The translations under genes were made by a program, and so were the position numbers. This document shows, piece by piece, positions 6,433 to 25,323 of a DNA stretch of 64,000 nucleotides. The stretch's first letter is position 1; the number at the start of each line of letters is the position of its first letter. The notes under the pieces are model-generated. The model was not told the DNA's origin. It did not search any database and saw only the letters and a program-made list of their open reading frames with translations. The stretch lies in the NCBI GenBank assembly GCA_949282385.1, contig CASDOP010000009.1, positions 1 to 64,000 of the forward strand, in the 5' to 3' direction. The DNA is from an uncultured Clostridia bacterium (GTDB lineage Bacteria > Bacillota > Clostridia > Christensenellales > Borkfalkiaceae).

Positions 6433-6525
6433 GCCGCCGCGCGGGCTGTGATGGCGACGAGCTGGCAGAGGCGCACTTGCGGTACGCTGTGCGCCTCTGC
6501 CAGATAGGCGACAAAGCGCGGCGGC
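6433..6525. other. Nested inverted repeat, candidate replication origin or packaging signal
   Basis: Outer arms GCCGCCGCGC (6433-6442) and GCGCGGCGGC (6516-6525) enclose a perfect 15-bp inner stem: CTGGCAGAGGCGCAC (6462-6476) with GTGCGCCTCTGCCAG (6489-6503), 12-base loop. Two more small hairpins follow: CAGGGC/GCCCTG, and GGTTG/CAACC before the next ribosome binding site. No T-run follows. Such dense folding in the main intergenic region is typical of filamentous phage origins and packaging signals. Confidence 0.65.
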
Positions 6526-6619
6526 AAGAAGATATAAATTAATAATGGGGTCAGGGCGTAGCCCTGCCGCATTTTTAGAGAATGGTTGCGCTTGCCTCAA
6601 CCATAAAGGAGCAACAAAA

Positions 6620-6826
6620 ATGATAGGCAAAACAATCTATGCAGACGGGCGCAATTACCTTTGCGACGACTGCAACCGTTTAGAAAAGTTTCAGAGCATA
6701 GAAGCCGCCCGCGCTGCGGGCTGGGCGATTGCTCGAAATCGTAAAAACTGTTACTGCCCCGCATGCGCGCCCGCGCGTCGGAACGTCGGCAAGGCTTGGG
6801 GCGGCGTTAGAACTTTAGTTAAATAA
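6620..6826 (+). CDS. Small two-CxxC zinc-ribbon-like protein
   Basis: I start this 68-residue protein at the ATG at 6620 because a strong AAAGGAG lies 8 bp upstream; the longer open frame from 6545 runs through the structured region. The CDDC pair near residue 14 and the CPAC pair near residue 48 form a likely zinc site, with a basic tail after it (APARRNVGKAWGGVR). It precedes the replication-type gene, so a nucleic-acid-binding role is plausible but not shown. Confidence 0.7.
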   Translation: MIGKTIYADGRNYLCDDCNRLEKFQSIEAARAAGWAIARNRKNCYCPACAPARRNVGKAWGGVRTLVK

Positions 6827-6840
6827 GGAATTAAAAGCGC

Positions 6841-7848: not shown

Positions 7849-7852
7849 TTAA

Positions 7853-7924
7853 AGCGCAGATACGGTCTGCGCTTATAGTCGTGTTTTAAAACGCCCGCCG
7901 CGTAAATTTTTACGCGGCGGGCGT
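7853..7924 (+). terminator. Two hairpins ending the prophage operon
   Basis: First stem: AGCGCAGA (7853-7860) with TCTGCGCT (7866-7873). Second: ACGCCCGCCGCGTAAA (7891-7906) with TTTACGCGGCGGGCGT (7909-7924), 16 perfect pairs and a 2-base loop, followed by TCTTTGTT. It is placed right after the replication gene and is probably a terminator. Confidence 0.75.
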
Positions 7925-8429
7925 TCTTTGTTAAATGGGTATAGGTATTTTGATAATTTTGATGTATCAAAATGCCTGTCAAAAATGCTCAAAAAGTCGT
8001 TTTCGCGCTCTCGCGCGACATTATTATATAATGTAAAACATAAAGAATATTAAAAGCGCCGCGGCTGTTTGTGCGCCTTGGCGCGGGGTTTAAGCGGTTT
8101 ATTTTATGCGCTAAAGCGCGAAGCTATGTGGCGAAGAGTAGTTGTAAAAGCGGCGCATGCGCCGCAGGGCTTTAAAAGGTGAATATTTGTAAGCCGACTT
8201 TCGCTGCTTGTTTTGTTTCTGAGCGAAGCTCCTGGGCGGCGTTTCTGAGCGAGTTTCAGGGGTCAAAGACCGGCGTTAATCTTCGAGGCTATAAAACGTC
8301 GTCAACGAGCTGCCGTAACAAAAAAACCCCCGCCGCAGCTTGGGGACTGTGCGGGGACTATATATAAAAAATTGCGTTTAAATCGGTAAAAATATTAAAA
8401 AAATATCGTTTTTTAGGCTTTCCCTCTGT
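7925..8429. other. Non-coding, hairpin-rich right end of the prophage
   Basis: I see no convincing gene; the frame at 8179-8367 lacks a ribosome binding site and family features. The stretch contains ATTTTGAT/ATCAAAAT (7956-7963 and 7966-7973), the perfect palindrome GCGGCGCATGCGCCGC (8150-8165) after several GCGC-rich short stems, and a tandem GGGGACT pair at 8342-8359. It may include replication or packaging signals and the integrase-binding end. Confidence 0.5.
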
Positions 8430-8474
8430 CTCTGACTCCGTCATTCGGGTGTTCAAATCACTTCGCCCCAGCCA
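8430..8474 (+). repeat. tRNA-Gln(CTG) 3' fragment, attachment site between the two elements
   Basis: The sequence reads as a tRNA from the anticodon loop to CCA: CTCTGAC (anticodon CTG), 3' anticodon stem TCCGT, variable CATTC, T-arm GGGTG-TTCAAAT-CACTT, acceptor CGCCCCA, discriminator G and CCA. No 5' half lies upstream, so it is a 3' remnant left by integration. The first 37 bases recur at 32204-32240 with one difference. Confidence 0.85.
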
Positions 8475-8530
8475 AAAGCACTATATATTGTGGCTTGTTT
8501 AAATCCAGACACAATTGTAGTGCTTTTTTG
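8475..8530 (+). terminator. Terminator after the tRNA-Gln fragment
   Basis: AAAGCACTA...ATTGTG pairs with CACAAT..TAGTGCTTT (a 9-bp and a 6-bp stem with a small internal loop), followed by TTTTTTG. It resembles the native terminator of a tRNA gene carried over with the 3' fragment. Confidence 0.75.
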
Positions 8531-8600
8531 TTGTCATTTTTTGCCTTTTATGACTGATTTTTTGTCAATTTTGTAGTTAAATTTAGCTTATTTTACCCCG

Positions 8601-8666
8601 TTGGGAACTTTTGGGAACTTAAGGAAAGCTGCTTTTCAAGTCAATTTCAGCTTAAATTCAGTTCCC
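8601..8666. promoter_or_regulatory. Integrase arm-type sites, left end of the second element
   Basis: TTGGGAACTT occurs twice in tandem (8601-8610, 8611-8620), and an inverted GGGAAC lies at 8661-8666 within AGGGAACTGAATTT read on the minus strand. Related boxes appear inside the other end (GGGGAACTGAAAATTT near 32064 and TTGGGAACTT at 32168-32177). Confidence 0.6.
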
Positions 8667-8675
8667 TTTTTCGTC

Positions 8676-9929
8676 CTAAAATTCATAGTTCACCTTCTCG
8701 GCTTCGGAAAAGATATATTCCTCGGAATAGGTCGTATATCCCCTGTCCACGGCGGAAGTTTTAACATCCTTGTCGAAGGAATGTCCGTCCCAGAGCATTA
8801 CGACTTCCTGGTTGACCCCTGCCTCTTTGCAGCGGGTTATAAAGGTATATCTCAGCTCGTGCGGGTGATGATCGGGAAATAAACGCTTTAAAGTAGTCGC
8901 TACCGTTCGGGGATTGGTGTCCCTCGCCTTGTCGAAGTCGACGTAGGGCAGCACCCTCTTGAATACGGGTGTGAAGGGTATGCGTCTGAGCGTTACGTTT
9001 CTGCCCATGCGCTCTTTGCTCGTCGCGCATTCAAGCATATTGTCGCCTAAAATTTTAATCGATTGCAGCTCGCTCTGCCTCAGTCCGAAGTACAAAAGCA
9101 CGAGCATTGCCGAACTTGCGGCGTTATCCTGCTTTTGTATGCAGAAGTCCACAAGCTGCCTCTCTTCTGCTTTGGTGAACGCTCTGCCCTTCTTGGTTTC
9201 GCGGAAGGGAAGCACGATTTTCTTCATGGGCGAATCTATCTTGTAGTCCTCGACAGCCATATCGAAAATGCAGTTGAGCTGCAATTTGAGCTTTTCCGCC
9301 GTGCGGTGATGCCCCTCGTCGACAAAGGTAAACAGATAGTCCTGAACCATCGGTCTTGTAATCTCGCCAATCTTGCAATCGCCGAAGGTCGGCTTGAGAT
9401 TTACGTTGTACGAGCGGACATATTCCTTATATGTCGAGGGCTTTGTCGTGCGCTCCTTAATTTTAAGCCAGTTTTCGGCGCATACGGCAAACGTAACCGA
9501 ATTGGACGGCGAATATGGCAGAGTTTCCGCATATTTCGGGTCGGAAGAATACGCCTCGTTGAACTTTTCTATGAACTTTTCCTTCATAATCTCAAAGTCC
9601 ATCGAGGCAACTTCAATCCTCTTTCCGTCGCGGCGGTAACGCGCCTGAAACATACCCCTTATGTAGCGGTACTTTACATAAATATTGTTGTATTTGAAAT
9701 AATTTCTCATGATTGCAGGCATTTTTAAAATCTCCTTTTTAGTAAATTTTAAAATGCCCGATTTCTTTTCTCTTTCCGTCTTCTGACCTTTTTTATCAGA
9801 AGTTTTTTTGCTATCCCTCTCACCGCCGCTCGCCATTTTAAGAATGGTCGCAATGTGTTCGTCGGCGTTCGGGCGCGTAGAAACTTCCTTTATAAGTTGT
9901 GTCAATTCAAATATTTGCTGTTCTGTCAT
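8676..9929 (-). CDS. int: Tyrosine recombinase (site-specific integrase)
   Basis: A 417-residue integrase with an N-terminal arm-binding region and a SAM-like core-binding domain (about 145-235, FAVCAENWLKIKERTTKPSTYKEY). The catalytic domain shows Arg284 in FGLRQSEL, a candidate Lys305, His357-x-x-Arg360 in HPHELRYTF, His383 in WDGHS and a tyrosine near 401 in GYTTYSEEY. It would recombine the tRNA-Gln 3' core at 8430-8466 with its partner; the gene's 3' end faces that site. It is the last gene of a leftward unit Rep, sigma-like, Int. The long, lysine-rich N-terminus (35-70) is common in Firmicutes element integrases. Confidence 0.92.
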   Translation of the reverse strand: MTEQQIFELTQLIKEVSTRPNADEHIATILKMASGGERDSKKTSDKKGQKTEREKKSGILKFTKKEILKMPAIMRNYFKYNNIYVKYRYIRGMFQARYRRDGKRIEVASMDFEIMKEKFIEKFNEAYSSDPKYAETLPYSPSNSVTFAVCAENWLKIKERTTKPSTYKEYVRSYNVNLKPTFGDCKIGEITRPMVQDYLFTFVDEGHHRTAEKLKLQLNCIFDMAVEDYKIDSPMKKIVLPFRETKKGRAFTKAEERQLVDFCIQKQDNAASSAMLVLLYFGLRQSELQSIKILGDNMLECATSKERMGRNVTLRRIPFTPVFKRVLPYVDFDKARDTNPRTVATTLKRLFPDHHPHELRYTFITRCKEAGVNQEVVMLWDGHSFDKDVKTSAVDRGYTTYSEEYIFSEAEKVNYEF

Positions 9930-10182
9930 TTCCTCCTTGCTGCGGTTATTGCATAGTACAGCCGCGTATTTTAATCCCCTTAAAATTGTAATTCCGAAAG
10001 GCAGGTATCGCCCTGCCGCTTAAGCAATTTCAGTATAATTCTTAAATTTTCCAATTAAAAGGAACTAAAGCGGTATCTTCCCAAAACTTCAGCAACAAAA
10101 CCCAACTATACCCCAACAAACCCCAACTAAATGGAGGCAGGGCGGCGCTCGAATTGAGTTGTATGTATATTTTATATTCATA

Positions 10183-10806
10183 TCATTGCTTGCATAAATA
10201 TTTTTTGTAACGCCCCTGAATGGTGTAAATCACCGATTGTACAGTCCCTGCGCTGCGGTTGACAAGCTTGGCAATCTTTCTCAAAGTCATTCCTGCCATG
10301 CGGTAGTTCAATATCTCACGGTGGTAGGGCGTAAGCTTCATTTTATCCATCATCTGTTCGGCGACAATGTATTCTTCTTCGCTCGGCGTGTATGTTATCT
10401 GCTCTTTGTCGTTGAGTGCTTCAACCATACTCGCGCTCTTCGTAAAATCGCTGTATCTGCCACATATCATGCGGGTAATCAGTTTGTAACAGTAGTATTG
10501 AAGGCTTATATCTTTGCCTTTTCTGTCTGTCGTATAGGTATCTTCCAGATGCTCTCCGAAGTGCTCGCATAGGAAGAGTGCAACAGTCTGCACTATGTCG
10601 TAATTGTCCGAAAGTATGTATCCAGGCTCATTCTTGCGGTAAATGTCCTTGCAAATTTGAGTGTGTATTTCTGCCGCGAAACTGCCCGAAAAGCGAATAA
10701 GGTTCTTGGTCTCCTTGCATACGATAAGCTCCGCCATTTCCAGAACGTTTTCCGAAGAGATGACCTCCTTAAACAACCTGAAACTTCTTTTGTTTGTCTT
10801 TGTCAT
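10183..10806 (-). CDS. Sigma-70 region-4-like helix-turn-helix protein
   Basis: A 207-residue protein. The C-terminal 60 residues (LTPYHREILNYRMAGMTLRKIAKLVNRSAGTVQSVIYTIQGRYKKYL) match a sigma factor region 4 helix-turn-helix; the N-terminal part is helical with no clear region 2. It may act as an element-specific transcription factor, or be a sigma-like regulator of copy number or excision, as in other mobile elements that carry short sigma-like proteins. It lies between integrase and Rep in the same orientation, with gaps of about 250 and 230 bp. The target promoters are not identifiable. Confidence 0.75.
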   Translation of the reverse strand: MTKTNKRSFRLFKEVISSENVLEMAELIVCKETKNLIRFSGSFAAEIHTQICKDIYRKNEPGYILSDNYDIVQTVALFLCEHFGEHLEDTYTTDRKGKDISLQYYCYKLITRMICGRYSDFTKSASMVEALNDKEQITYTPSEEEYIVAEQMMDKMKLTPYHREILNYRMAGMTLRKIAKLVNRSAGTVQSVIYTIQGRYKKYLCKQ

Positions 10807-11039
10807 TTGTTTTTACCTCCGTCTTGAGTTTTTTTGTCTTTCGACGGGGTAAAAAGGGCATGGGCGATTTATTGATTGCAGAATTCTGATGTAACGGTGT
10901 CCCCTGTCAATAGAGAGAGGAAATTTTCTGCTGTCGGCAATTTATCGTCTTTATGAAATTTACGAGCGACATTGACTGGGGTAAACGGCTATGCCAAAAT
11001 ATCCCCTCGAAAGAGAAAACATACCCTTACCACAAAAAC

Positions 11040-11927
11040 TCAATTACTTTTCGGCATTTTCTCTATCACCTCGTAACTGACTTTTCCCATAATCTCGCCC
11101 TCGCTTATGCAGGTAAAATCGTCCGCAAGTATGTACTTAAAACCATGGTCTTCATCTCCCATTTGGCATAGGATATCCTCGTCCAAAACGTCCGACACGA
11201 AATAGGTTTTCATTCCGCGCGAGTAGACTACTTTCTCGTCGTTTTTGGTGATATATTTGAGCATATACTTAATGCTGTCCGCAACTTGCAGTTTATTTGT
11301 AATTGCGGAAAAGTCGCTCCTGCCGAAACGCTCGTTGAAATAGCTGTTTTGAATACTCTTTTCGCGACGGCGGCGCTTGGTGCTGTAATCTTCGTGTTCT
11401 TCTAATATACCGGGCATACTGTTTTCGGGAATATACGCGAGTGCGTGAAAGTGCATTCTTTCACCGAGTTCGCCCCTCTCCCACGCGCCTATATACCTCC
11501 AACCACGCCTTGATGAGAGGTGATACAGCGTATTCATAAGACTTGTTCTGAAACTCTCTTCCGTATGTTTCTCGGAATTGTAGGTAAATGTACAAAAGAA
11601 ATTCCAGCCATAGTTATATCCTCTCCGTATCATTCGCTTGTACCTTTCCCAACGGTTGCGACTTAATCTGTTAAAGTGCTTTTCCACAAATTCGTCCGCA
11701 TCCTCTTGATTTTCAAACAAGGGCGAACACTCTTGCAATACCTTAGCCTTTCGCGTTGAACGCTTGCCTTTGACCTTATTGAATTGCTCTTCTATAATTT
11801 CAACCTTTTTCTTTTCCTCGGCTGAAATAGGCATCTTTTCATTTCGCCTTTTACGCCGCCTTTCTGTATGAGGTATGGCAATATAATGTCCGCCGTCATA
11901 GTAAATCTTTGCCGCAAGAAGGTTCAT
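11040..11927 (-). CDS. rep: HUH rolling-circle replication initiator (Rep)
   Basis: A 295-residue protein with the three HUH endonuclease motifs: FFCTFTY (110-116), the metal site HFH (159-161, in ERMHFHALAYIP) and the catalytic segment KYMLKYITKN with tyrosines 221 and 225. The spacing and the KYxxKYI pattern recall Rep proteins of microviruses and small plasmids. It would nick an origin and remain covalently bound to the DNA 5' end. An excellent GGGAGGTGAG site lies 6 bp before the ATG, and the start overlaps the stop of a tiny upstream frame. A nested inverted repeat at 12571-12634 is a candidate origin. It implies the element can replicate after excision. Confidence 0.88.
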   Translation of the reverse strand: MNLLAAKIYYDGGHYIAIPHTERRRKRRNEKMPISAEEKKKVEIIEEQFNKVKGKRSTRKAKVLQECSPLFENQEDADEFVEKHFNRLSRNRWERYKRMIRRGYNYGWNFFCTFTYNSEKHTEESFRTSLMNTLYHLSSRRGWRYIGAWERGELGERMHFHALAYIPENSMPGILEEHEDYSTKRRRREKSIQNSYFNERFGRSDFSAITNKLQVADSIKYMLKYITKNDEKVVYSRGMKTYFVSDVLDEDILCQMGDEDHGFKYILADDFTCISEGEIMGKVSYEVIEKMPKSN

Positions 11928-13609: not shown

Positions 13610-14719
13610 ATGAAAATTGTAATGATAGGTCACAAATACGTTCCGTCCCGAGAGGGCGGCGTAGAAATAGTGGTTGAAAACCTTGCGACGCGAATGGCGA
13701 CGCTGGGGCATGAAGTCACGCTTTTCAATCGCAAACGCAAAGAGTATGCTCCTATCACCGATTATAAAGGCTGCAAAGTAGAAAATATTTTTACAGTCAA
13801 CAAACGCTCGCTCGATGCTATCGTCTATGCCTTCTTTGCGACGCTTAAAGCCAGAAAAATGCTGAAAAAAGGCGAGGCGGATATAGTTCATTATCATGCC
13901 GAAGGTCCCTGCTTCTTCCTCAATCTTTTGCCAAAAAAGAAGAAACGCCCCGGTACCAAGATTGTTGTAACCATACATGGGCTTGACTGGCAAAGAGGCA
14001 AATGGGGCGGATTTGCAACTAAAATTTTGCTTTCGGGCGAAAAAAAAGCTGTTAAGTATGCTGACGAGATAATTGTGCTGTCCCATAATAATAAGTCCTA
14101 TTTTATGGATACTTATGGAAGAGAAACAAAATATATTCCCAATGGCATCCAGACGCCTCAGCTTCACGAGCCTGAAATTATAAAAGAGAAATACGGACTT
14201 TGTTTTAACGACTACATTCTTTTCCTTGCAAGAATTGTTCCCGAAAAAGGACTGCATTATCTGATTGAAGCTTGGAAAAAGGTTGTTGAACAGACAGGCA
14301 CAACCAAGAAGCTTGTTATTGCAGGCGGTTCTTCGCACAGCGACGAATACTTCGAAAGTATATGCAATATGTGCAAGGGCGATAATTCCATCATAATGAC
14401 GGGCTTTGTGCAGGGGCAGGAATTGCAGGAGCTGTATTCCAATGCCTATCTCTATGTGTTGCCTTCAGATATCGAAGGCATGCCCATGAGCCTTCTCGAA
14501 GCGCTTTCGTACGGCAATGTCTGCCTTGTTTCGGATATACCCGAAAATACCGAAGTTATCAATGAGAATTGCTATGTCTTCCGCCGCGGAGATGTGGACA
14601 GGTTGCGCCACCAGATTAAGAAGATAATAAACCTCAACCTTACAACTCACAGCAATATGGTAATCCCCTACACCTGGGACGAAGTCGTAGACAAGACAAT
14701 AGAAGTCTATAAGAGATAA
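13610..14719 (+). CDS. Glycosyltransferase family 4 (GT-B fold)
   Basis: A 369-residue protein. The N-terminal Rossmann domain starts with KIVMIGHKYVPSREGGVEIVVENLATRM, the GG-containing acceptor-side loop of GT4 enzymes. The C-terminal domain carries LFLARIVPEKGLHYLIEAW and the nucleotide-sugar motif near 290-310 (DIEGMPMSLLEALSYG), with the glutamates typical of the family. It would transfer a sugar from an NDP-sugar to the lipid-linked repeat unit at the inner membrane face. Donor and acceptor cannot be read from the sequence. The next gene starts 2 bp after its stop. Confidence 0.88.
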   Translation: MKIVMIGHKYVPSREGGVEIVVENLATRMATLGHEVTLFNRKRKEYAPITDYKGCKVENIFTVNKRSLDAIVYAFFATLKARKMLKKGEADIVHYHAEGPCFFLNLLPKKKKRPGTKIVVTIHGLDWQRGKWGGFATKILLSGEKKAVKYADEIIVLSHNNKSYFMDTYGRETKYIPNGIQTPQLHEPEIIKEKYGLCFNDYILFLARIVPEKGLHYLIEAWKKVVEQTGTTKKLVIAGGSSHSDEYFESICNMCKGDNSIIMTGFVQGQELQELYSNAYLYVLPSDIEGMPMSLLEALSYGNVCLVSDIPENTEVINENCYVFRRGDVDRLRHQIKKIINLNLTTHSNMVIPYTWDEVVDKTIEVYKR

Positions 14720-14720
14720 T

Positions 14721-15932
14721 ATGAAAGTTTTATTGGTTAATAAATTTCACTATATGAAGGGCGGTTCGGAAAGATATTATTTCACTCTTGCCGAAACATT
14801 CAAAAGCAAAGGACACGATGTGGTATTCTTTGCTATGGCTGACGAGAAAAATATTCCTTGTGAGCAGTCAAAGTATTTCGTGTCCAACTCTTCCGTAGGC
14901 GGCGGTATTAAGAGCAAGCTGAATATGGTGCTTCATATCGCTTATTCCAAGGAAGCTTATAAAAAAATGAAAGCTCTTCTTGCAGAGGAAAAGCCTGACC
15001 TTGTTATACTTAATCTTGTTCACAAACAGATAACGCTCTCGATTATTGACGCCATCAAAGAATATAACGCTAAACTTCCCATATTCTGGACTATGCACGA
15101 TTTGATTACCGTTTGTCCGTCATATACAATGTTGGACGGCGCGGGCAATATCTGCGAGGCTTGCATGGACGGAAACTTTGGACATTGCGTTGAAAAGAAA
15201 TGCATCAAAGGTTCAAAACTTATGAGTCTGCTCTCTAAATACGAAGCAGACTATATTCGTAAGAAAGGATGGTACAACAAGGTAGACCTGTATATATGCC
15301 CTTCCGAATTCTATAAAAAGAAATTGAAAGAAGGTAAATTTACCAAATCACCGATAGTCTGCATGCGCAATCCGCTTTCGGCAGATACTCAGTTCGGCGT
15401 TAACGACAACGATAAAGGCTATGCGCTTTACTTTGGAAGGCTATCTAAGGAAAAAGGCGTCAAAACCTTGATTGACGAAGCAGTAAAAGCTAATATCAAA
15501 CTTTATATCCTCGGAACGGGACCGATAGAAGAAGAACTCAAGGAATATGCCCAAAATTATAGCAATGTCGAGTTTAAAGGCTTCCAAACGGGACAGGCTT
15601 TGACTGATTATATCAAGAATGCGCGTTGCGTCGTTCTGCCTTCCGAGTGGTACGAAAACGGTCCTTACAGCGCAATGGAAGCAATGGCTCTCGGTAAACC
15701 ACTTGTCGTATCAGACAATGGCGGATTGCCGGAATTGGTCGACGACGGCATAAACGGATATATCTATTCCGATAAGGCACAGCTTTCAGAAAAGTTGACA
15801 AAAATATTTGCCCTTTCGCAGAGCGACTACTCGTCAATGTGTAAGCAATCGTATGAAAGAGCTAAAATGCTGTTCGATGCGAACAGTTATATAGACAATT
15901 TACTTGCTGAATACAGTAAAATAAAAAAATAA
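14721..15932 (+). CDS. Glycosyltransferase family 4 (GT-B fold)
   Basis: A 403-residue GT4 protein: an N-terminal FHYMKGGSERYYFTLAETFKSKGHDV motif, a Cys-rich mid-section (VCPSYTMLDGAGNICEACMDGNFGHCVEKKC) often seen in a subset of GT4 enzymes with a zinc-like knuckle, then LYFGRLSKEKGVKTLIDEA and the donor-site motif WYENGPYSAMEAMALGKPLVVSDNGGLPE. It is tightly coupled to the previous gene. It probably adds a second sugar of the repeat unit. Confidence 0.88.
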   Translation: MKVLLVNKFHYMKGGSERYYFTLAETFKSKGHDVVFFAMADEKNIPCEQSKYFVSNSSVGGGIKSKLNMVLHIAYSKEAYKKMKALLAEEKPDLVILNLVHKQITLSIIDAIKEYNAKLPIFWTMHDLITVCPSYTMLDGAGNICEACMDGNFGHCVEKKCIKGSKLMSLLSKYEADYIRKKGWYNKVDLYICPSEFYKKKLKEGKFTKSPIVCMRNPLSADTQFGVNDNDKGYALYFGRLSKEKGVKTLIDEAVKANIKLYILGTGPIEEELKEYAQNYSNVEFKGFQTGQALTDYIKNARCVVLPSEWYENGPYSAMEAMALGKPLVVSDNGGLPELVDDGINGYIYSDKAQLSEKLTKIFALSQSDYSSMCKQSYERAKMLFDANSYIDNLLAEYSKIKK

Positions 15933-15946: not shown

Positions 15947-17128
15947 ATGGCAGAGAAAAAATTAAACGGAACAGTAATCGTAACCTATCGTTGCAATGCT
16001 CGTTGCACGATGTGTAACAGATATAAGGCGCCTTCCCGCCCCGAAGAGGAGCTTTCGATTGAAACTATCAAAAAATTGCCTCGCATGTATTTCACAAATA
16101 TCACCGGCGGCGAGCCTTTTATTCGTCAGGATCTTAAAGATATAGTGCGCGAGCTCTATAAAAAGAGCGACCGCATCGTTATCTCGACTAACGGCTTCTT
16201 TACAGACAGAATTATCGACCTTTGCAAGGAGTTCCCCAACATCGGTATTCGTATCTCTATTGAAGGCTTAGAGCAGACTAACAATGAGATCCGCGGTTTG
16301 CAGGATGGTTTCAATCGCGGATATACTACATTGCAGAAGCTTGTTGAAATGGGCATGAAGGATGTCGGTTTCGGCATGACCGTTCAGGATAAGAACGCTC
16401 CCGACCTCGTCCCCCTCTACCTCCTCTCCAATCAGATGAATATGGAATTCGCAACGGCATCTCTGCACAATAGTTTTTACTTTGTTGAAGCGAAGAACAT
16501 TATTCACGACCGTCCTATGGTTGCGCAGAATTTTGAAAACCTCATAAACGAGCTTCTCAATTCCAACAGCCCCAAGAAGTGGTTCCGCGCATATTTCAAT
16601 CACGGCTTAATCAATTATATATACGGACAAAAGCGTCTTCTTCCCTGCGATATGAGTTTCGATACTTTCTTTATCGACCCTTACGGCGATGTAATGCCCT
16701 GCAACGGTACGAAAGATAAGGAAGTCATGGGCAACCTCAATACTCAGACGTGGGACGAGCTGTGGAACAGCGCCCAGGCAGAAGTCGTCCGCAAAAAGGT
16801 TCGTTGCTGCGACAGAAATTGCTGGATGATAGGTTCAGTTTCGCCTGCAATGCATAAATACATCTGGAAACCTTTATGGTGGGTATTCGTTCACAAGTTC
16901 CTCCGCTTCTTCAAGAAGAAAAAGTACAGCATGTATGAACTTAAAGTTGTTCGCGATTACCGCGACGGCAAGGTTACAAAGGAAGATTTGGATAAGCTTT
17001 CGACTTGTGATGTAAACGCAACAATCAACGATGGTTTGTCTGCAGCCAGCAAGGAACAGCTTGCAACCAAGTCCGGCGAAGAAATAGTCGACGCCGACAT
17101 CAAAGGTCAGATGAGTGAAGAAAAGTAA
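15947..17128 (+). CDS. Radical SAM enzyme with SPASM-like C-terminal cysteines
   Basis: A 393-residue protein. The [4Fe-4S] motif is Cys16-x3-Cys20-x2-Cys23 (CNARCTMC), then NITGGEPFIRQDL (SAM binding) and VISTNGFF. A second cysteine set (LLPCDMSFDTFFIDPYGDVMPCN ... RCCDRNC) resembles SPASM/twitch auxiliary clusters. The last 80 residues are basic and then acidic, without motifs. The locus encodes sugar transfer and export, so the enzyme may modify a sugar or lipid carrier, or a peptide linked to the glycan. It sits between GT4 and GT2 genes, with the downstream start overlapping its stop (TAATG). Confidence 0.85.
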   Translation: MAEKKLNGTVIVTYRCNARCTMCNRYKAPSRPEEELSIETIKKLPRMYFTNITGGEPFIRQDLKDIVRELYKKSDRIVISTNGFFTDRIIDLCKEFPNIGIRISIEGLEQTNNEIRGLQDGFNRGYTTLQKLVEMGMKDVGFGMTVQDKNAPDLVPLYLLSNQMNMEFATASLHNSFYFVEAKNIIHDRPMVAQNFENLINELLNSNSPKKWFRAYFNHGLINYIYGQKRLLPCDMSFDTFFIDPYGDVMPCNGTKDKEVMGNLNTQTWDELWNSAQAEVVRKKVRCCDRNCWMIGSVSPAMHKYIWKPLWWVFVHKFLRFFKKKKYSMYELKVVRDYRDGKVTKEDLDKLSTCDVNATINDGLSAASKEQLATKSGEEIVDADIKGQMSEEK

Positions 17129-18021
17129 TGTCAAACTTAAATAGTATAATAACTGTTGTTACGCCAACGTATAACAGAGCAAAGGAACTAAATAATTTAT
17201 ATAAGTCGCTTATTTTACAAGATTGTCAAGAATTTGTTTGGTTAATTATTGATGACGGCAGCGAAGATGATACACAAGATGTAGTATCAGGTTGGTTGAC
17301 TGAAAATAAAATTGATATTTTATATAAGAAAAAAATCAATGGTGGCAAACATACTGCACTTAATTTTTCTTATCAATTTGTTTCAACACCTTTGATATTT
17401 ATAGTTGATAGCGATGACCAACTGACGGCAAATGCAATTTCCACAATTGTATCGAAATACAATTTATATAAAGATGAAACGGATTTATGCGGTTTTAGTT
17501 TTTTGAGAGGGAAGCCTAATGGGGGATATTTAAGCACCAGTGGAGTTCCTAAAAATAATCTTAAAGAATCTTATGTCGAATGTCGTATAAACCGCAAAAT
17601 TGGCGGAGATATGGCTGAAGTATGGTTTACCCACTGTCTTAAAGAGTTTCCATTCCCTGAATTTGAGAGCGAAAAATTTTTAGGAGAAGACGTCGTCTGG
17701 ATAAGGATGTCTGAAAAATATAAATTGCGTTTTTACAACGATGTTATTTATATTTCTGACTATCTTGAAGCCGGATTAACAAATAATCGCCGTAAACATA
17801 ATATTGCATCACCTAAAGGATGTGTTATAAGAGCTGAAACGTTTCTTGATTCTGATGCGATTTTTTCGCAAAAGATAAAAGCAATGTTGCAATATATAAT
17901 TTATGGCAAATTTGCCGGATATCAACAAAAAGAATTACTAAAACAAACTTCAAAAAAGTTTTTGTTTATAATACTATATTTGCCTGCTTTATTAATTTAT
18001 TATAAGTGGAAAACCATTTAA
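17128..18021 (+). CDS. Glycosyltransferase family 2 (GT-A fold)
   Basis: A 297-residue protein with the GT2 start ITVVTPTYNRAKELNNLYKSL, the first aspartates in IIDDGSEDDT and the DXD-type motif FIVDSDDQLT (about 88-97), followed by LGEDVVWIRM in the acceptor-side region. No membrane helix except a hydrophobic C-terminus (FLFIILYLPALLIYY) that may tether it. From here the DNA turns markedly AT-rich compared with the preceding genes, indicating a different origin for this part of the cluster. Confidence 0.88.
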   Translation: MSNLNSIITVVTPTYNRAKELNNLYKSLILQDCQEFVWLIIDDGSEDDTQDVVSGWLTENKIDILYKKKINGGKHTALNFSYQFVSTPLIFIVDSDDQLTANAISTIVSKYNLYKDETDLCGFSFLRGKPNGGYLSTSGVPKNNLKESYVECRINRKIGGDMAEVWFTHCLKEFPFPEFESEKFLGEDVVWIRMSEKYKLRFYNDVIYISDYLEAGLTNNRRKHNIASPKGCVIRAETFLDSDAIFSQKIKAMLQYIIYGKFAGYQQKELLKQTSKKFLFIILYLPALLIYYKWKTI

Positions 18022-18037
18022 AAACTGATTGAAATTT

Positions 18038-18949
18038 ATGAAATCAATAGCATTTGTTATACCTTATTTTGTTGAAAAGGACAATAAATTACCAAATTAT
18101 TTTAAATTATGGCTAAAAACATGTTCATATAATTCATCAATAGACTTTTTATTTTTTACAAATGATAAATCACACTATGAATTCCCAAAAAATGTAAAAG
18201 TAACTTATTGTGATTTTGTGGATATCGTCAAACTTTGTCAAAAGCAATTTGACTTTAAGATTGAATTGACTAAACCTTATAAGTTATGTGATTTTAGACC
18301 AGCCTACGGCGAAATATTCCATGAATATTTAACCGGGTATGATTTTTGGGGATACTGTGATATCGATTTATTGTGGGGGGATATAAGAAATTTTATTACT
18401 GATGATATATTGATAAAATATGATAAAATTTATACACATGGGCATTGTTCATTATTTAGGAATACGTGCGAAGTGAATTCTTGGTATCGTACATTAAACA
18501 ACAATGGCTGGCAAAATTGGAGAGATGTTTTTATATCAAAAGATGCGTGTTGCTTCGATGAATGGGGGGGACACCATGGTGGAGGAATCTCATATATACT
18601 AAAAACAAATGGCATTTCTCAATATGATAATATTGATATGGCTGATATAAATGTTAAACATGGACGATTTGATTTAATAAGAATCCCTGGAAAGGATTGG
18701 TCATTTAAGTATAATCTTGGCAATTTGGAGGCGTTTAACAATAAATTCAGATGTAAATTGTTATATTGTCATTTTCAAAAAAGAATGATAAAGTTTGAAA
18801 ATGATAATGTTAAAGATGAGTTCTATCTGTTATCGCCAGGGTACGTTTCAAACAAATATAAAAAATATTATATAGGGAGAATGAATTATAGGTTAAAATT
18901 TTTATTTAACCGACTTAAATATTTAGTCAATAAGTTCTTTCATTTATAA
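18038..18949 (+). CDS. DUF6625-type putative glycosyltransferase
   Basis: I start at the ATG at 18038 (MKSIAFVIPYF); an in-frame TTG lies 9 bp upstream. The roughly 300-residue protein shows the hallmarks I associate with DUF6625: IPYFVEKDNKLPNYFKLWLKTC, KPYKLCDFRPAYGEIFHEYLTGYDFWGYCDIDLLWGDIRNF and EWGGHHGGGISY. The CDIDLLWGD segment resembles the DXD site of GT-A sugar transferases. Members occur in Gram-positive polysaccharide loci, so it is probably another transferase of the repeat unit. AT-rich like its neighbours. Confidence 0.75.
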   Translation: MKSIAFVIPYFVEKDNKLPNYFKLWLKTCSYNSSIDFLFFTNDKSHYEFPKNVKVTYCDFVDIVKLCQKQFDFKIELTKPYKLCDFRPAYGEIFHEYLTGYDFWGYCDIDLLWGDIRNFITDDILIKYDKIYTHGHCSLFRNTCEVNSWYRTLNNNGWQNWRDVFISKDACCFDEWGGHHGGGISYILKTNGISQYDNIDMADINVKHGRFDLIRIPGKDWSFKYNLGNLEAFNNKFRCKLLYCHFQKRMIKFENDNVKDEFYLLSPGYVSNKYKKYYIGRMNYRLKFLFNRLKYLVNKFFHL

Positions 18950-18998: not shown

Positions 18999-19919
18999 AT
19001 GTTATCTTTATTAATGTCTACCTACAATGGTGAAAAATTTATTGAACAACAATTAAATTCTATTTTGAATCAATCATTACCTTTGGATGAGGTTATTATA
19101 ATTGATGATTGTTCTACTGATAAGACTGTACAAATAATTAATGACTTTATTAAACGTAACAATTTAATTAATTCATGGATTGTTATTAAAAATAATATTA
19201 ATCGTGGGTGGAAATTTAATTTTTTCTATGGTATTGAAAAAACACGAGGCGATATAATTTTCTTTTCTGATCAAGATGACATTTGGCATCCTGATAAAGT
19301 AAAATATTTTAATAATATATTTATCGATAATGAATTTATAGATGTTGTTGCGTCTAAAGAAGAATTGTACTTTGGTGGAGAATACAAATTTAAAAAATTA
19401 TCAAATTCATTTGTTAAAATTGGACTTGATGATAGATGCGTGCATTATAGAATGGAAGTTTCTGGATGTGCAATGGCAATAAGAAAATCTTTTTATAATA
19501 AGGTTAAGTCTTATTATACTCAAGGTCAAGCTCATGATGAATTTTTTTGGCAAATGGGACAGGCTTTTGATTCTCTTGCTTTGATAAGCGATCGTACAAT
19601 TTTACATAGAATTCATGGTGGAAATGAATCGAGGAAAAAATCTTTTAAATTAGACAGAATTTCATGGTGTATTGGTAATATTAATTCAATAGATAACACG
19701 CTAAGGTGTTTGGAATATTATAAAAATGAAATAAATGATTATAAAATTAAAATTTTAGCTCTAAATGGTAGAAAAGAATTGTTTAGGGCAAGATTATTAT
19801 TGTTAACTGAAAGAAAAATAAATATGATATTTAAATTATTTTTTGACAAATATCATATTTACGCCAGGAAACGGCAATTGTTTAAAGATATAATGTGTGC
19901 TTTTGGATTTTTAAAATGA
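18999..19919 (+). CDS. Glycosyltransferase family 2, rhamnosyltransferase-like
   Basis: A 306-residue protein: LSLLMSTYNGEKFIEQQLNSILNQSL, IIDDCSTDKT, the DXD motif FFSDQDDIWHPDKV (about 88-101), then MEVSGCAMAIRKSFYN and HDEFFWQMG. The SDQDDIW motif is typical of WbbL/RfbF-like rhamnosyl and related transferases. With dTDP-rhamnose made by rmlABDC nearby, this is a good candidate for rhamnose transfer. The next gene starts inside its stop (ATGA). Confidence 0.85.
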   Translation: MLSLLMSTYNGEKFIEQQLNSILNQSLPLDEVIIIDDCSTDKTVQIINDFIKRNNLINSWIVIKNNINRGWKFNFFYGIEKTRGDIIFFSDQDDIWHPDKVKYFNNIFIDNEFIDVVASKEELYFGGEYKFKKLSNSFVKIGLDDRCVHYRMEVSGCAMAIRKSFYNKVKSYYTQGQAHDEFFWQMGQAFDSLALISDRTILHRIHGGNESRKKSFKLDRISWCIGNINSIDNTLRCLEYYKNEINDYKIKILALNGRKELFRARLLLLTERKINMIFKLFFDKYHIYARKRQLFKDIMCAFGFLK

Positions 19920-21268
19920 TTTTTATTGTAATTGGTATTTTTATAATATTTTATAGTTTTATTAATTATAAAAAAGGCTTCAGCTTATATTTGTGTTATA
20001 AATTAATACTGGTAACAAATATTACTGTTATCTCATCACCTGGATTGCCGTTACTTACTCTTGAGATGGCAATGACATTAATTTATATTATTTTGTTTAT
20101 CTTTAATGGCGCAAAATACCAAAGAGCGCATATGAAATTTCAGTTTACATTGCCTATATGGCTTTATGTTGCTTCTTTATTTATTTCTTCTCTACTGTCT
20201 GTTGCTGGTTTGGGAACTGAAATATCTAATCTAATAAAGCAATTGTCCGAAAATGTTGTTTTAATTTGGATAGCTTGGCAAATTATAGAGTTTAAAGAAG
20301 ATTTTTATTATATTTTTAAAATAATAACGGCAATTATTTTGTTTTCATGTGTTTATGGCTTTGTAGAATATTTTTTACAAAAGAATCCTTTGACAGAATT
20401 TGAAGCTACACTAAATAATGATCCTAATAGAACAATAGATTATTCGTATGATTCTGATTTTAGAGGATACAGAGTTAATTCTATTTTTGAACACGCGATT
20501 GGTGCTGGAATTATATGGGGGTTATATGCGTCAGTAGTTTTTATTGCCGTTAAAGAAAAGCAATTAAAAGGCGATAAAGCTATTGTTCCTTTAGTTACAG
20601 CATTTTTATGTATTATTTGTGTTTTCTTGACAAAAATGCGAAGCACATATTTATTTTTATTTATTTGTATTTTATCTTTAATTAATTTAAAAAGTCCAAA
20701 ATTTTATTTGTTATTATTTATAATTTTAATAGTTGGTGCTATTTGTGTTCCATTTATATCTCCGGATATAATTAACGTTTTAACAAGCTTCTTTAATAGT
20801 GATAGTGCTAATGCTGTGTCGGGCAGCAGTCTTGAAATGAGGTTGGATCAATTCAAAGCCGCATTCCAATTGATGTCTATCTCACCTATATTTGGACTTG
20901 GTCCAAGCTTTACTGATGTAATGGAAGGTACTTTAATAGATCGCTTATTGGGAAGTGAAAGCATTTGGCTTGGAGTGATTACGCAGTTGGGTGTTATAGG
21001 TATTATTGCTTATATTATTCAAGTATTTTATTTTATTTATAAGGTGCCTAAAAATTTTAAAAATAAGTATTTGTTTATTGTTTCTTTAGCTTATTGGATA
21101 ACTGCAACTGTCACTTCAATGCCAGGGTTTAAAATTATTTATTTGTATTTATTTTTATTTTATATTATAAAAAATACAGAATATTATAAATTACAGATAA
21201 CTAGAGGTAGAATATATACGTTTAACTTTAACAGTGGTGCTTTTAAAGTTAGAAAAATAAAAATATAA
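19916..21268 (+). CDS. wzy: Wzy-type O-antigen/capsule polymerase
   Basis: I chose the ATG at 19916, which overlaps the preceding stop (ATGA); a longer frame begins at 19895. The roughly 450-residue protein has about ten hydrophobic segments and the large extracytoplasmic loop with [26 protein letters not shown] and [22 protein letters not shown], characteristic of Wzy/ligase proteins (PF04932-like). It would join flipped repeat units into a chain on the outer face of the membrane. Strongly AT-rich. Confidence 0.82.
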
Positions 21269-21288: not shown

Positions 21289-22173
21289 ATGAAAGGTATT
21301 ATACTTGCAGGCGGTGCGGGGACAAGATTGTATCCGCTCACTATGGTAACAAGTAAGCAGCTTTTGCCTGTTTATGACAAACCAATGATTTACTATCCGC
21401 TTTCGACGCTTATGTTGGCAGGGATACGCGAGATATTGATTATCTCTACCCCTGTCGATTTGCCTAATTTTGAGAAATTGTTGGGAGATGGCAGCCAATA
21501 CGGCGTCAAACTTTCCTATAAAGTTCAACCATCCCCCGATGGGCTTGCACAGGCTTTTATTTTAGGTAAAGAATTCATAGGAAACGATGCCTGCGCCATG
21601 ATACTTGGCGATAATATATTCTATGGCGGTGGTTTCAGTAAAATTTTAAAAGCCGCAAAAAATGACGCAGAAAGCGGCAGAGCGACTGTTTTTGGATACT
21701 ATGTCCCCGATCCCGAACGCTTTGGCGTTGTCGAATTCGATAATAACGGCAAAGCTATATCCATTGAAGAAAAACCGCAAAATCCTAAGAGCAACTATGC
21801 AGTTACCGGACTGTATTTCTATCCTGCAGGCGTTGCAAAGAAGGCTGAACAAGTCAAGCCTTCTGCTCGCGGTGAGCTCGAGATTACCACGCTCAACGAA
21901 ATGTATCTTAAAGAAGAATTGCTTGACGTCCAGGTTTTAAGCCGCGGTTATGCATGGCTTGATACCGGCACAATGGACAGCCTTGCAGAAGCAACCGACT
22001 ATGTCAGGATTGTGCAGAATCGTCAAGGCGTAGAAATATCTGCCCCGGAAGAGATTGCATATATCAACGGATGGACTACAAAGGCAGAATTGCTTATTGC
22101 GGCAGAGAGATACGGGAAATCCCCCTATGGCAAGCATTTAAAGAATGTTGCAGAAGGCAAATTACAATACTAA
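21289..22173 (+). CDS. rmlA: Glucose-1-phosphate thymidylyltransferase RmlA
   Basis: A 294-residue protein, the usual family length. It has the nucleotidyltransferase signature [37 protein letters not shown] and [11 protein letters not shown], with [21 protein letters not shown]. It makes dTDP-glucose from dTTP and glucose-1-phosphate, the first step to dTDP-L-rhamnose. The four rml genes are less AT-rich than the glycosyltransferases around them, suggesting a separate module in a mosaic locus. Confidence 0.96.
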
Positions 22174-22188
22174 GGAGAGAATAACTAC

Positions 22189-23211
22189 ATGACAATAATA
22201 GTTACCGGCGGAGCCGGATTTATAGGCAGCAACTTTATATTCCACATGCTTGGAAAGTACCCCAATTACCGCATAGTATGCCTCGATAAACTAACCTACG
22301 CCGGCAATCTTTCGACGCTTGCAAGCGTAATGGACAACCCCCACTTCCGCTTTGTAAAGCTAGACATATGCGATCGCGAGGGTGTATATAAGCTCTTCGA
22401 AGAGGAACACCCCGATATAGTTGTCAACTTCGCGGCTGAAAGCCATGTTGACAGAAGCATTGAAGATCCGACAATCTTCCTTCAGACAAATATAATCGGC
22501 ACATCTGTTCTAATGGACGCCTGCCGTAAATACGGCATTAAGAGGTATCACCAGGTATCCACGGACGAGGTCTATGGCGATTTGCCGCTCGACCGTCCTG
22601 ACCTGTTCTTTACTGAGACCACCCCTCTTCATACGTCTAGCCCCTATTCAAGCTCAAAGGCATCGGCAGACCTCTTGGTTCTGGCGTATTACCGCACGTA
22701 CGGATTGCCCGTCAGCATATCGAGGTGCTCGAATAACTACGGCCCCTACCACTTCCCCGAAAAGCTCATACCCCTTATGATAGCCAACGCGCTTACAGAC
22801 AAGCCCCTTCCCGTGTACGGTAAGGGCGAAAACGTGCGCGACTGGCTGTATGTTGAAGATCACTGCAAAGCAATCGACCTTATAATTCACAATGGCAGAG
22901 TCGGCGAGGTCTACAATGTCGGCGGTCACAACGAAATGAAGAATATCGATATCGTCAAGCTGATATGTAAGGAACTTGGCAAGCCTGAAAGCCTTATAAC
23001 TTACGTTGCCGACCGTAAGGGGCATGATATGCGCTATGCAATCGACCCCACGAAGATACACGAAGAGCTCGGCTGGCTGCCCGAAACAAAATTTGCGGAC
23101 GGCATAAAGAAGACGATAAAGTGGTATCTCGACAACAAGGAATGGTGGCAGACCATAATTTCCGGCGAGTATCAGAATTATTACGAAAAGATGTACGGTA
23201 ACAGACAATGA
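22189..23211 (+). CDS. rmlB: dTDP-glucose 4,6-dehydratase RmlB
   Basis: A 340-residue extended short-chain dehydrogenase. NAD-binding GGAGFIGSNF at the N-terminus, AAESHVDRSI, STDEVYG and the catalytic YSSSKASADLLV (Tyr-x3-Lys), then RCSNNYGPYHFPEKLIPLMI, all conserved in RmlB. It converts dTDP-glucose to dTDP-4-keto-6-deoxyglucose. It starts 15 bp after rmlA with an AAGGAGAG site; its stop overlaps rmlD. Confidence 0.96.
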   Translation: MTIIVTGGAGFIGSNFIFHMLGKYPNYRIVCLDKLTYAGNLSTLASVMDNPHFRFVKLDICDREGVYKLFEEEHPDIVVNFAAESHVDRSIEDPTIFLQTNIIGTSVLMDACRKYGIKRYHQVSTDEVYGDLPLDRPDLFFTETTPLHTSSPYSSSKASADLLVLAYYRTYGLPVSISRCSNNYGPYHFPEKLIPLMIANALTDKPLPVYGKGENVRDWLYVEDHCKAIDLIIHNGRVGEVYNVGGHNEMKNIDIVKLICKELGKPESLITYVADRKGHDMRYAIDPTKIHEELGWLPETKFADGIKKTIKWYLDNKEWWQTIISGEYQNYYEKMYGNRQ

Positions 23212-24098
23212 AGATATTTGTAACAGGCGTCGGCGGTCAGCTCGGCTACAACGTCATGAACGAACTTAAAAAGCGGGACATTGAAGCTGTCGGTAGCGAC
23301 ATTTTGCCAGAGTGCGATAAATACGAGCACTATATCCCAATGGATATAACCAATGCCAAACAGGTCAAAGAAGTAATTTCATCTGTCAAACCCGATGCGG
23401 TAATTCACTGCGCCGCGTGGACGGCTGTCGATGCCGCTGAAGATGAGGAAAACATTCCCAAGGTCAGAGCAATAAATGCAGACGGCACTAAAAATATTGC
23501 CGAAGTCTGCAAACAGACAGACGCCAAGATGATGTATATCTCGACGGACTATGTCTTTGACGGACAGGGAGACAAGCCCTGGCTGCCCGATTGCAAGGAC
23601 TATAAACCGCTCAATGTCTATGGTCAAACCAAACTTGAAGGCGAACTTGCGGTATCAGCTTTGCTTGAAAAATATTTTATCGTCCGCATAGCGTGGGTAT
23701 TCGGTCTGAACGGCAAGAACTTCATAAAGACAATGCTCAATGTCGGCAAAAAGTACGATACCGTCAGGGTGGTAAACGACCAGATTGGCACCCCCACCTA
23801 CACTTATGATCTTGCCAGACTGCTTGTCGATATGATAGTTACGGATAAATATGGCTATTACCATGCAACTAACGAAGGCGGATATATCAGCTGGTATGAC
23901 TTCACAAAGGAAATTTTCCGCCAAGCTGGTTATACCACAAACGTCCTTCCCGTCACAACTGCGGAATACGGGCTCTCTAAGGCGGCAAGACCTTTCAATA
24001 GTCGTTTGGATAAGGCAAAATTGCGTACAAGAGGATTTGAACCTCTTCCCGACTGGAAAGATGCACTTAAAAGATATCTCAAGGAGATTGAACACTGA
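23208..24098 (+). CDS. rmlD: dTDP-4-dehydrorhamnose reductase RmlD
   Basis: A 296-residue protein; the ATGA overlap with rmlB couples translation. NAD(P)-binding GVGGQLGYNV, CAAWTAVDAAEDE, STDYVFDG and YGQTKLEGE (catalytic Tyr-x3-Lys) are all RmlD motifs. It carries out the last step to dTDP-L-rhamnose. It precedes rmlC in the pathway only after the 3,5-epimerase, whose gene lies one gene downstream. Confidence 0.95.
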   Translation: MKIFVTGVGGQLGYNVMNELKKRDIEAVGSDILPECDKYEHYIPMDITNAKQVKEVISSVKPDAVIHCAAWTAVDAAEDEENIPKVRAINADGTKNIAEVCKQTDAKMMYISTDYVFDGQGDKPWLPDCKDYKPLNVYGQTKLEGELAVSALLEKYFIVRIAWVFGLNGKNFIKTMLNVGKKYDTVRVVNDQIGTPTYTYDLARLLVDMIVTDKYGYYHATNEGGYISWYDFTKEIFRQAGYTTNVLPVTTAEYGLSKAARPFNSRLDKAKLRTRGFEPLPDWKDALKRYLKEIEH

Positions 24099-24706
24099 TG
24101 AATCTCAAATATATAATTCGCCTTTTAGCATTTAAGCGCAATTGGCGTAAAACTAATACGCATAACTACACTTGGGTAAATGGGGTTTTTGATGATAAAT
24201 ATGTTCATGTTGCTAATTATACTTATGGCGGATTAAATATAAGACAATCAAATGTTGGACCTCATCTATACATCGGTAATTTTTGTTCTATTGCCGGCGA
24301 TGTAGTGTTTATGTTAAGTAGCGAACACTACATTAATCATATTTCTACTTTTCCGTTTCGCGCTAAATTATTAGATGGACATGCGGAAGCTTTTGGTAAA
24401 GGCGATATAGTTGTTAATGATGATGTATGGATAGGCGAACGGGCAATTATTATGTCAGGTGTATCGATTGGTCAGGGGGCGGTAATTGCAGCAGGAGCCA
24501 TTGTAACAAACGATGTTCCCCCTTATGCATTAGTCGGTGGCGTTCCCGCAAAAGTCATTAAATATAGATTTAATAAAGAATTAATTGATGAATTAATCAA
24601 AATTGATTATTCGAAACTAACAAAAGAAATGATCAGCTTACACAAGAATGAATTATATAAATCTTTAACAGAAATCAATCAATTAGATTGGTTACCTAAA
24701 AAATAA
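24098..24706 (+). CDS. Hexapeptide-repeat O-acetyltransferase (CatB/XAT type)
   Basis: A 202-residue left-handed beta-helix acyltransferase: IGNFCSIAGDVVFMLSSEHYINHISTFPF (catalytic His in the SSEHYINHIS loop), DDVWIGERAIIMSGVSIGQGAVIAAGAIVTNDVPPYALVGGVPAKVIKYRF. It probably acetylates a sugar of the repeat unit using acetyl-CoA. It starts inside the rmlD stop and splits rmlC from rmlABD. Its DNA is AT-rich, unlike the rml genes on both sides, so it was probably inserted. Confidence 0.9.
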   Translation: MNLKYIIRLLAFKRNWRKTNTHNYTWVNGVFDDKYVHVANYTYGGLNIRQSNVGPHLYIGNFCSIAGDVVFMLSSEHYINHISTFPFRAKLLDGHAEAFGKGDIVVNDDVWIGERAIIMSGVSIGQGAVIAAGAIVTNDVPPYALVGGVPAKVIKYRFNKELIDELIKIDYSKLTKEMISLHKNELYKSLTEINQLDWLPKK

Positions 24707-24720
24707 GCTATGAGGAATCT

Positions 24721-25323
24721 ATGGGACAGATAAAAGTTGAAAAGAATGTCGGCGGGATTGAAGGTCTTTGCGTAATTACCCCCGCTGTTCACGGCGATAA
24801 TCGCGGCTACTTTATGGAAACATACAGTCAGCGCGATATGGAAGAAGCGGGTTTTAATATCACTTTCGTGCAGGACAATCAGTCTATGAGCACAAAGGGC
24901 GTATTGAGGGGACTGCATTTCCAAATAAATTATCCTCAGACCAAACTTGTCCGCGTTATAAAGGGTGCGGTGTTCGATGTCGCTGTTGACCTTCGCAAAA
25001 ACAGCAAAACTTATGGCAAATGGTACGGCGTTGAACTGACCGAAGAAAATAAAAAACAGTTTTTAATTCCCAAGGGTTTTGCGCACGGCTTTTTAGTAAA
25101 ATCTGATGTCGCTGAGTTCTGCTATAAGTGCGACGACTTCTACCACCCCAACGACGAGGGCGGACTTGCATGGAACGAGCCCTCCATCGGCATTTATTGG
25201 GGCGTTTGCGGCGAATACCGTGGTTCCGCTTCCGCTGAAGGTTATACCCTTCCCGATGGCACGCCGTTAAATCTTTCCGCAAAAGATCAAAAATTGGGTT
25301 TATTTACAGATATACAAAACTAA
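24721..25323 (+). CDS. rmlC: dTDP-4-dehydrorhamnose 3,5-epimerase RmlC
   Basis: A 200-residue cupin: EGLCVITPAVHGDNRGYFMETY, FVQDNQSMSTKGVLRGLHFQINYPQTKLVRVIKGAVFDVAVDLR (catalytic His in RGLHFQ), IPKGFAHGFLV and CDDFYHPNDEGGLAWN. It epimerises C3 and C5 of the keto sugar before RmlD acts. It completes the dTDP-L-rhamnose set. Confidence 0.95.
   Translation: MGQIKVEKNVGGIEGLCVITPAVHGDNRGYFMETYSQRDMEEAGFNITFVQDNQSMSTKGVLRGLHFQINYPQTKLVRVIKGAVFDVAVDLRKNSKTYGKWYGVELTEENKKQFLIPKGFAHGFLVKSDVAEFCYKCDDFYHPNDEGGLAWNEPSIGIYWGVCGEYRGSASAEGYTLPDGTPLNLSAKDQKLGLFTDIQN

Follow-up and report, generated by a model that had tools for sequence, protein, structure and literature searches.

A radical SAM enzyme coupled to two GT4 glycosyltransferases, with a probable role in modifying a lipid-linked surface glycan

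Gene neighborhood of the radical SAM gene

The DNA that we analyzed, a 64,000-nucleotide stretch of contig CASDOP010000009.1 from an uncultured Clostridia bacterium (here called the window), carries a Wzx/Wzy-type polysaccharide locus that includes an intact gene for a 393-aa radical SAM enzyme (Table 1). Its ATG start is preceded by a GGAG box 7 nt upstream, a gap of 14 nt separates it from the end of the GT4b gene, and its TAA stop overlaps the ATG of the following GT2 gene by 1 nt (TAATG). The original prediction, made from the sequence, had placed a radical SAM enzyme between GT4 and GT2 genes with an overlapping start, and both the open reading frame and the Pfam assignments of the neighbors agree with it. 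The product scored 59.8 bits with Pfam Radical_SAM (PF04055; cut-off, 29.5), which puts it in the superfamily, and 39.1 bits with Pfam SPASM (cut-off, 21.5).

Table 1. Features of the polysaccharide locus in the window
Feature	Position	Strand	Basis
GT4a: GT4 glycosyltransferase, DUF1972/Cps2T-like	13610-14719	+	Pfam, NCBIfam, co-occurrence
GT4b: second GT4 glycosyltransferase	14721-15932	+	Pfam; homologues fused N-terminally to the radical enzyme
Radical SAM/twitch enzyme	15947-17128	+	393 aa, intact ORF; Pfam, alignment, model
GT2 glycosyltransferase, locus-specific	17128-18021	+	Pfam
DUF6625 protein, probably glycan-related, locus-specific	18029-18949	+	Pfam, 264 bits
GT2 glycosyltransferase, locus-specific	18999-19919	+	Pfam
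Wzy-type polymerase/O-antigen ligase family (Wzy_C)	19895-21268	+	Pfam
rmlA	21289-22173	+	Name by reading translation
rmlB	22189-23211	+	Name by reading translation
rmlD	23208-24098	+	Name by reading translation
Putative acetyltransferase	24098-24706	+	Translation
rmlC	24721-25323	+	Name by reading translation
Wzx-like flippase	27235-28782	+	Polysacc_synt, 27.8 bits, just below cut-off of 28.2

The genes for GT4a, GT4b, and the radical enzyme have a G+C content of 40 to 45%, against 25 to 31% for the following four genes, and therefore look like one module set beside locus-specific genes. The DUF6625 gene stands between the two GT2 genes of the glycan locus. The rmlA, rmlB, rmlD, and rmlC genes, which were named by reading their translations, presumably supply dTDP-L-rhamnose, and homologues of the genes of this region (21289 to 25323) occur in other loci, by a tally that includes the window's own copy (L001). 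No initiating sugar-phosphate transferase was found within the window, and the genome has two elsewhere (PF02397 matches), in its other polysaccharide locus; there, no radical SAM relative was found and the GT4 scores were generic (62 to 74 bits). Adjoining the locus is an element (2015 to 11927) with genes for a Zot-domain ATPase (5107 to 5898), a phage-type integrase (8676 to 9929), and a G2P-type replication protein (11040 to 11927), which appears to be an inovirus-like prophage or a relative of one.

Family distribution and glycosyltransferase partners

A scan of one genome for each of 84,980 species confirmed at least 590 relatives of the enzyme. The best 80 of these, a set that covers close relatives only and is thus biased to high identity, were 83 to 92% identical to it and came from Lachnospiraceae, Oscillospiraceae, Acetivibrio, and bins named Bacilli and Spirochaetales; plasmid-borne copies were also found in Pseudobutyrivibrio xylanivorans MA3014 (pNP95; 86%) and, in Bacteroidota, Segatella copri DSM 18205 (84%). 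The distribution is patchy. In the window's own family, a relative (E 1e-15) is present in 4 of 201 genomes; a relative of more than 80% identity is carried by 3 of 398 genomes of the phylum, and the radical enzyme by 35 of 299 Lachnospiraceae genomes. The genus of Butyrivibrio sp. YAB3001 has it in 31 of 79 genomes, a figure that includes two genomes matched only in part, in one case to the paralogue. Near-identical copies (98.5 to 99.5%) were found in different families (Blautia, Faecalibacterium, Coprococcus), suggesting recent transfer. On the other hand, the median protein identity of 86% is accompanied by only 31% identity at four-fold degenerate sites (3486 pairs; third-position G+C of 0.11 to 0.80), which points to an old divergence under strong constraint.

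When the neighboring genes in the fetched loci were clustered, GT4a and GT4b stood out as the two recurring companions. Among the 56 well-flanked loci (at least 8 kb on either side), GT4b was present in 49, GT4a in 44, and both in 38, so that GT4b was unrecognized in 7 and GT4a in 12; the gaps to the neighbors are short (medians of 22 and 23.5 nt). The commonest other genes in these loci encode acyltransferases (28), initiating transferases (25), and FrhB-type proteins (13).

The coupling was also found at the genome level. Among the 299 Lachnospiraceae genomes, GT4a was present in 34 of the 35 with the radical enzyme and 9 of the 264 without it (43 in total; Fisher P, 3e-35, phylogeny ignored), and GT4b in 32 and 8, respectively (40 in total; Fisher P, 4e-32, phylogeny again ignored), with both in 31 of the 35. 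The GT4a and GT4b HMMs derive from the neighbor clusters of the fetched loci themselves. In each genome only the top candidates, usually no more than four to six, received a score, so that absences of GT4a or GT4b are slightly uncertain. In the sole enzyme-bearing genome missing GT4a (G921), a fusion stands next to a GT4a gene split by a frame change, and the co-occurrence persists with the enzyme and GT4a on separate contigs, e.g., in genomes G604 and G915. GT4a and GT4b occur together in four genomes that lack the radical enzyme, where other genes follow GT4b, and the enzyme therefore looks like an add-on acting on the lipid-linked product of the two. The distances of the enzyme correlate with those of GT4a (Mantel rho, 0.57; 0 of 2000 permutations); for GT4b, the correlation is weak (rho, 0.20; 18 of 2000 permutations).

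We found GT4b and the radical enzyme fused in one open reading frame of 809 to 907 aa in 7 of the 80 scan loci, two of which (L051 and L056) are identical DNA, and an eighth fusion in G921. The GT4b part is 34 to 37% identical to the window's GT4b and is followed by a radical enzyme part of 85 to 87% identity. The linkers differ between two groups of radical enzyme sequences that are 83 to 85% identical, which places the fusion in at least two lineages. Such a fusion is also a single polypeptide for expression and assay.

The association of the enzyme with GT4a and GT4b crosses phyla. On the S. copri plasmid, GT4b lies just 5′ and GT4a just 3′ of the enzyme, and the same order was found in three Bacteroidales-type capsule contigs (L117 to L119; 36 to 52% identity), with an acyltransferase-like gene (L119) or a small DUF6169 gene (L117) between GT4b and the enzyme. 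The records of these three fecal contigs (MT836080, MT836979, and MT836413) bear the name 'Bacteriophage sp.', but they read as capsule/polysaccharide loci, not as phages. An apparent sharp gap in identity among the 398 phylum genomes (>80% versus <31%) was refuted by eight Lachnospiraceae sequences at 67 to 76% (clade II), which have the same partners in seven of their eight fetched loci; the other one, L231, has neither inside its 11 kb. The rarity originally ascribed to radical SAM enzymes in such loci thus holds per genome, whereas some of these loci have this enzyme as a recurring, dedicated component, and a view of it as an oddity finds no support.

Both clade II proteins of this kind that were scanned combine GT4a with a WecG/TagA/CpsF (GT26) domain. 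GT4a-GT26 fusions are seen at L227:951-2900, L230:16754-18751, and L224:6944-9373, the last being also fused to another GT4, and by their domains such chains are putative multi-step glycosyltransferases. This fusion, together with the known roles of GT26 enzymes, suggests GT4a may act early on a lipid-linked glycan.

Some further radical SAM genes and neighbors were observed. No close relatives of the enzyme were found in viral contigs; one IMG/VR contig encodes, amid phage-type genes, a 335-aa radical SAM protein (L120:7983-8990) of about 29% identity over residues 12 to 319, which may be a modifier of surface glycans carried by a phage. Even a second radical SAM paralogue of Butyrivibrio (about 41%; L207 to L211) lies in polysaccharide loci without GT4a or GT4b, near an initiating sugar-phosphate transferase in both of the annotated loci (two of the five). 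FrhB/FdhB-type (coenzyme F420 hydrogenase beta) proteins recur downstream, often with polysaccharide pyruvyl transferases (L115:21214-33130); a role as the dedicated reductase was rejected on their presence in only 13 of 56 loci.

Conserved cysteines and predicted fold

The 393-aa enzyme has a CX3CX2C motif at residues 16 to 23 and a GGEP motif at residues 54 to 57. We aligned 100 sequences: 84 of clade I, the 8 of clade II, 3 of the Bacteroidales type (clade III), and the 5 Butyrivibrio paralogues. The clade I set comprises the window's sequence and L003 to L085, with L001 and L002 dropped, and is redundant in part (L003 and L074 represent a single locus, the L051 and L056 copies do not differ, and identity is above 97% in many pairs). 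C16, C20, and C23 are invariant along with G54, G55, and E56, and the only other cysteines invariant in all 100 are C234, C252, C288, and C292. This pattern fits three ligands for the radical cluster and four for one auxiliary cluster, i.e., a twitch-like arrangement. A SPASM domain holds two auxiliary clusters and has the seven-cysteine pattern CX9-15GX4C-CX2CX5CX3C-C, of which only these four cysteines are common to the family, although the Pfam SPASM score exceeds its cut-off. The BtrN-like twitch, a C-terminal module with four cysteines and one auxiliary cluster, agrees better, with the four invariant cysteines and a profile match of residues 227 to 290 to the BtrN auxiliary module (E 8e-5). 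The SPASM-like cysteines of the original prediction are accordingly present, but those common to the family fit one auxiliary cluster rather than several.

Besides the seven cluster cysteines, we failed to find a candidate hydrogen-donor cysteine, as in epimerases of the NeoN, HygY, and EpeE type, common to all 100 sequences. Some invariant cysteines are specific to one clade: C354 to clade I (84/84), C151 to clade II (8/8), and C328 to the three clade III sequences; C354, being absent from clades II to IV, was rejected as a hydrogen donor common to the family. Other conserved residues are N175-S176, R214, and N253, which might line the substrate. An aromatic and basic C-terminal helix (approximately residues 307 to 321) precedes a tail containing C354. 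W312 is invariant in all 100 sequences, and the conserved C-terminal segment is rich in Trp and Lys, which suggests contact with the membrane.

An AlphaFold2 model of the enzyme (pLDDT, 87.8; pTM, 0.87) matched radical SAM enzymes along its length. VIA-align ranked BlsE first (Z, 22.7; 283 residues, 3.0 Å), followed by SkfB (21.3), SuiB (20.3), anSME (18.9), MoaA (18.8), DesII (17.1), EpeE (14.4), and BtrN (13.7), whereas Foldseek ranked SkfB first and BlsE second. SpeY and BtrN were both in the structure-match lists. In the sequence comparisons, HpnH and Tes were weak matches, and the best PDB match by profile was SkfB (E 1.8e-16). The aligned part starts at residue 1 to 4 of the enzyme, compared with 93 to 105 in SkfB and SuiB. 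The radical domain thus begins directly at the N terminus, without the extension of SkfB and SuiB, which in SkfB is a recognition domain. The predicted fold does not settle the substrate.

Proposed role, alternatives, and relation to known systems

We consider it fairly probable that GT4a, GT4b, and the radical enzyme form a glycan module of three genes in which the radical enzyme carries out the modifying step, and that it acts on the lipid-linked product; it would then probably alter a sugar of the growing surface coat. The lipid-linked substrate, the order of the steps, and the membrane contact are what we infer. In this scheme, GT4a and GT4b would extend a sugar linked to undecaprenyl diphosphate on the inner side of the membrane. 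The radical enzyme, kept at the membrane by its aromatic and basic C-terminal helix or covalently through the GT4b fusion, would bind their product, split SAM at its [4Fe-4S] cluster, and abstract a ring hydrogen from one of the sugars, most probably the residue that GT4b had attached. The auxiliary cluster may help in substrate binding or electron transfer. The outcome could be a redox-neutral change that gives a stable residue, i.e., an epimerization of the D- to L-hexose type, and it would precede flipping and polymerization.

A peptide substrate would have to be explained by a RiPP or other peptide or protein maturase lying in glycan loci by chance, its precursor being encoded elsewhere. 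SkfB, SuiB, and others are among the best structural matches, but no conserved precursor was found within 5 kb in 84 loci (537 small open reading frames), no family of such frames occurred in more than eight loci, and the largest group (8/84 loci) was acyltransferase debris. No N-terminal recognition (RRE) domain was found by Pfam, which gave only Radical_SAM and SPASM, and no family or RiPP maturase cut-off was reached among the best 25 of the 51 NCBIfam families matched, nor did we see clear membership of a peptide-modifying family. By any test run, the protein does not look like a peptide maturase, and, with its fusion to and coupling with glycosyltransferases, this explanation is distinctly improbable. 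The earlier observation that no precursor lies nearby is thus borne out, as is the doubt about a peptide substrate; an unusual modification of a sugar or carrier, proposed instead, gains support from the specific GT4 partners, the GT4b fusions, the genome-level coupling, and the absent precursor. For the polyprenyl carrier itself as the substrate, one may cite the conserved C-terminal helix and the existence of lipid-acting radical SAM enzymes (HpnH, Tes), weak matches here. Undecaprenyl phosphate, however, serves all envelope pathways, yet the gene tracks two specific glycosyltransferases, and we regard this reading as very remote.

Two alternatives lie closer to sugar chemistry. The enzyme could act, as DesII does, on a free nucleotide sugar, making a rare donor for GT4b. 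DesII and BlsE, with their small sugar substrates, are structural matches, and a dedicated donor would explain the coupling to GT4b and, by channeling, the fusion. The radical enzyme is nevertheless about 86% conserved and GT4b about 39%, though GT4b would have to bind the same donor; GT4b occurs without the enzyme in eight genomes; and the conserved aromatic helix suggests a membrane-side substrate. We therefore judge this route quite unlikely. The other, a twitch dehydrogenase resembling BtrN and SpeY that would oxidize a sugar hydroxyl of the lipid-linked glycan to a ketone, with later, variable reduction or amination, is a sub-case of our favored explanation by substrate and a rival by reaction. 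The auxiliary cysteine pattern shared with BtrN, the profile match, the presence of both enzymes in the fold lists, and the missing universal extra cysteine speak for it. Its constant partners in the 56 loci are GT4a and GT4b only, with no constant aminotransferase or reductase, and we hold it unlikely.

Granted a lipid-linked substrate, epimerization is our leading, if tentative, guess for the reaction. Dehydrogenation appears more doubtful, dehydration/deoxygenation and any other reaction have a small chance each, and decarboxylation a smaller one. The guess arises because Butyrivibrio, with the enzyme in the genus-level share given above, includes makers of L-altrose, and rare L-sugars have long been known from its exopolysaccharide; this is a genus-level correlation, the known structures and the checked loci being from different strains. 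It is weakened because no extra cysteine is universally conserved, and for the same reason we keep the general statement at fairly probable and put the specific one much lower: that this is an epimerase family dedicated to surface polysaccharides, inverting a ring carbon of a residue already on the undecaprenyl carrier, is a rather unlikely proposal. One might guess at C5, with D-galactosyl converted to L-altrosyl or D-glucosyl to L-idosyl.

Radical SAM chemistry on sugars is known from antibiotic pathways. Among open-licence papers, we found none on this family and none with a radical SAM enzyme shown to modify a glycan in such loci; for a Campylobacter capsule locus, one report lists radical SAM genes nearby, without a function (PMC8743553). 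In the present family, such chemistry appears to contribute, widely and under strong constraint, to the building of surface glycans by gut and rumen anaerobes from two phyla or more. If the proposed role is true, predicting sugars in such loci from nucleotide-sugar genes alone would overlook a residue formed on the lipid carrier, and there would be a testable gene for the rare L-sugars in the exopolysaccharide of Butyrivibrio. The epimerase reading, if true, would explain the origin of L-altrose-type residues in rumen and gut bacterial exopolysaccharides and would couple anaerobic radical chemistry to a glycosyltransferase, sometimes by fusion.

Several known systems resemble parts of this module. 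The best NCBIfam match of GT4a is the beta-1,4-rhamnosyltransferase WchF/Cps2T (NF046071), and rml genes are in the window's locus; however, GT4a reaches 107.2 bits, far under the cut-off of 500 for membership, so that rhamnosylation, though hinted at, was rejected as its role. The rmlA cluster occurs in only 5 of the 56 well-flanked loci. SkfB and other SPASM RiPP maturases share the best PDB sequence match and a high structural score, but they have an N-terminal extension and a precursor gene, neither of which was found here. BtrN and SpeY, twitch dehydrogenases of antibiotic aminocyclitols, share the single auxiliary cluster predicted here, which in BtrN has a four-cysteine pattern of ligands; they differ in acting on small, free substrates from antibiotic clusters, and BtrN is about 20% identical. 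BlsE, a cytosylglucuronate decarboxylase (PDB 7vob), has 16% identity, a nucleoside uronic acid of an antibiotic as its substrate, and, to our knowledge, no glycosyltransferase partner. It shares the whole core fold and the CX3CXMC and GGEP motifs, and it acts at C5 of a sugar ring (PMC3715490). The radical SAM sugar epimerases NeoN and HygY act on aminoglycosides, and Cys249, given as the donor of NeoN in PMC10991966, has no universal counterpart in the window's family; they would be the model for a small radical SAM enzyme that epimerizes a glycoside after its assembly.
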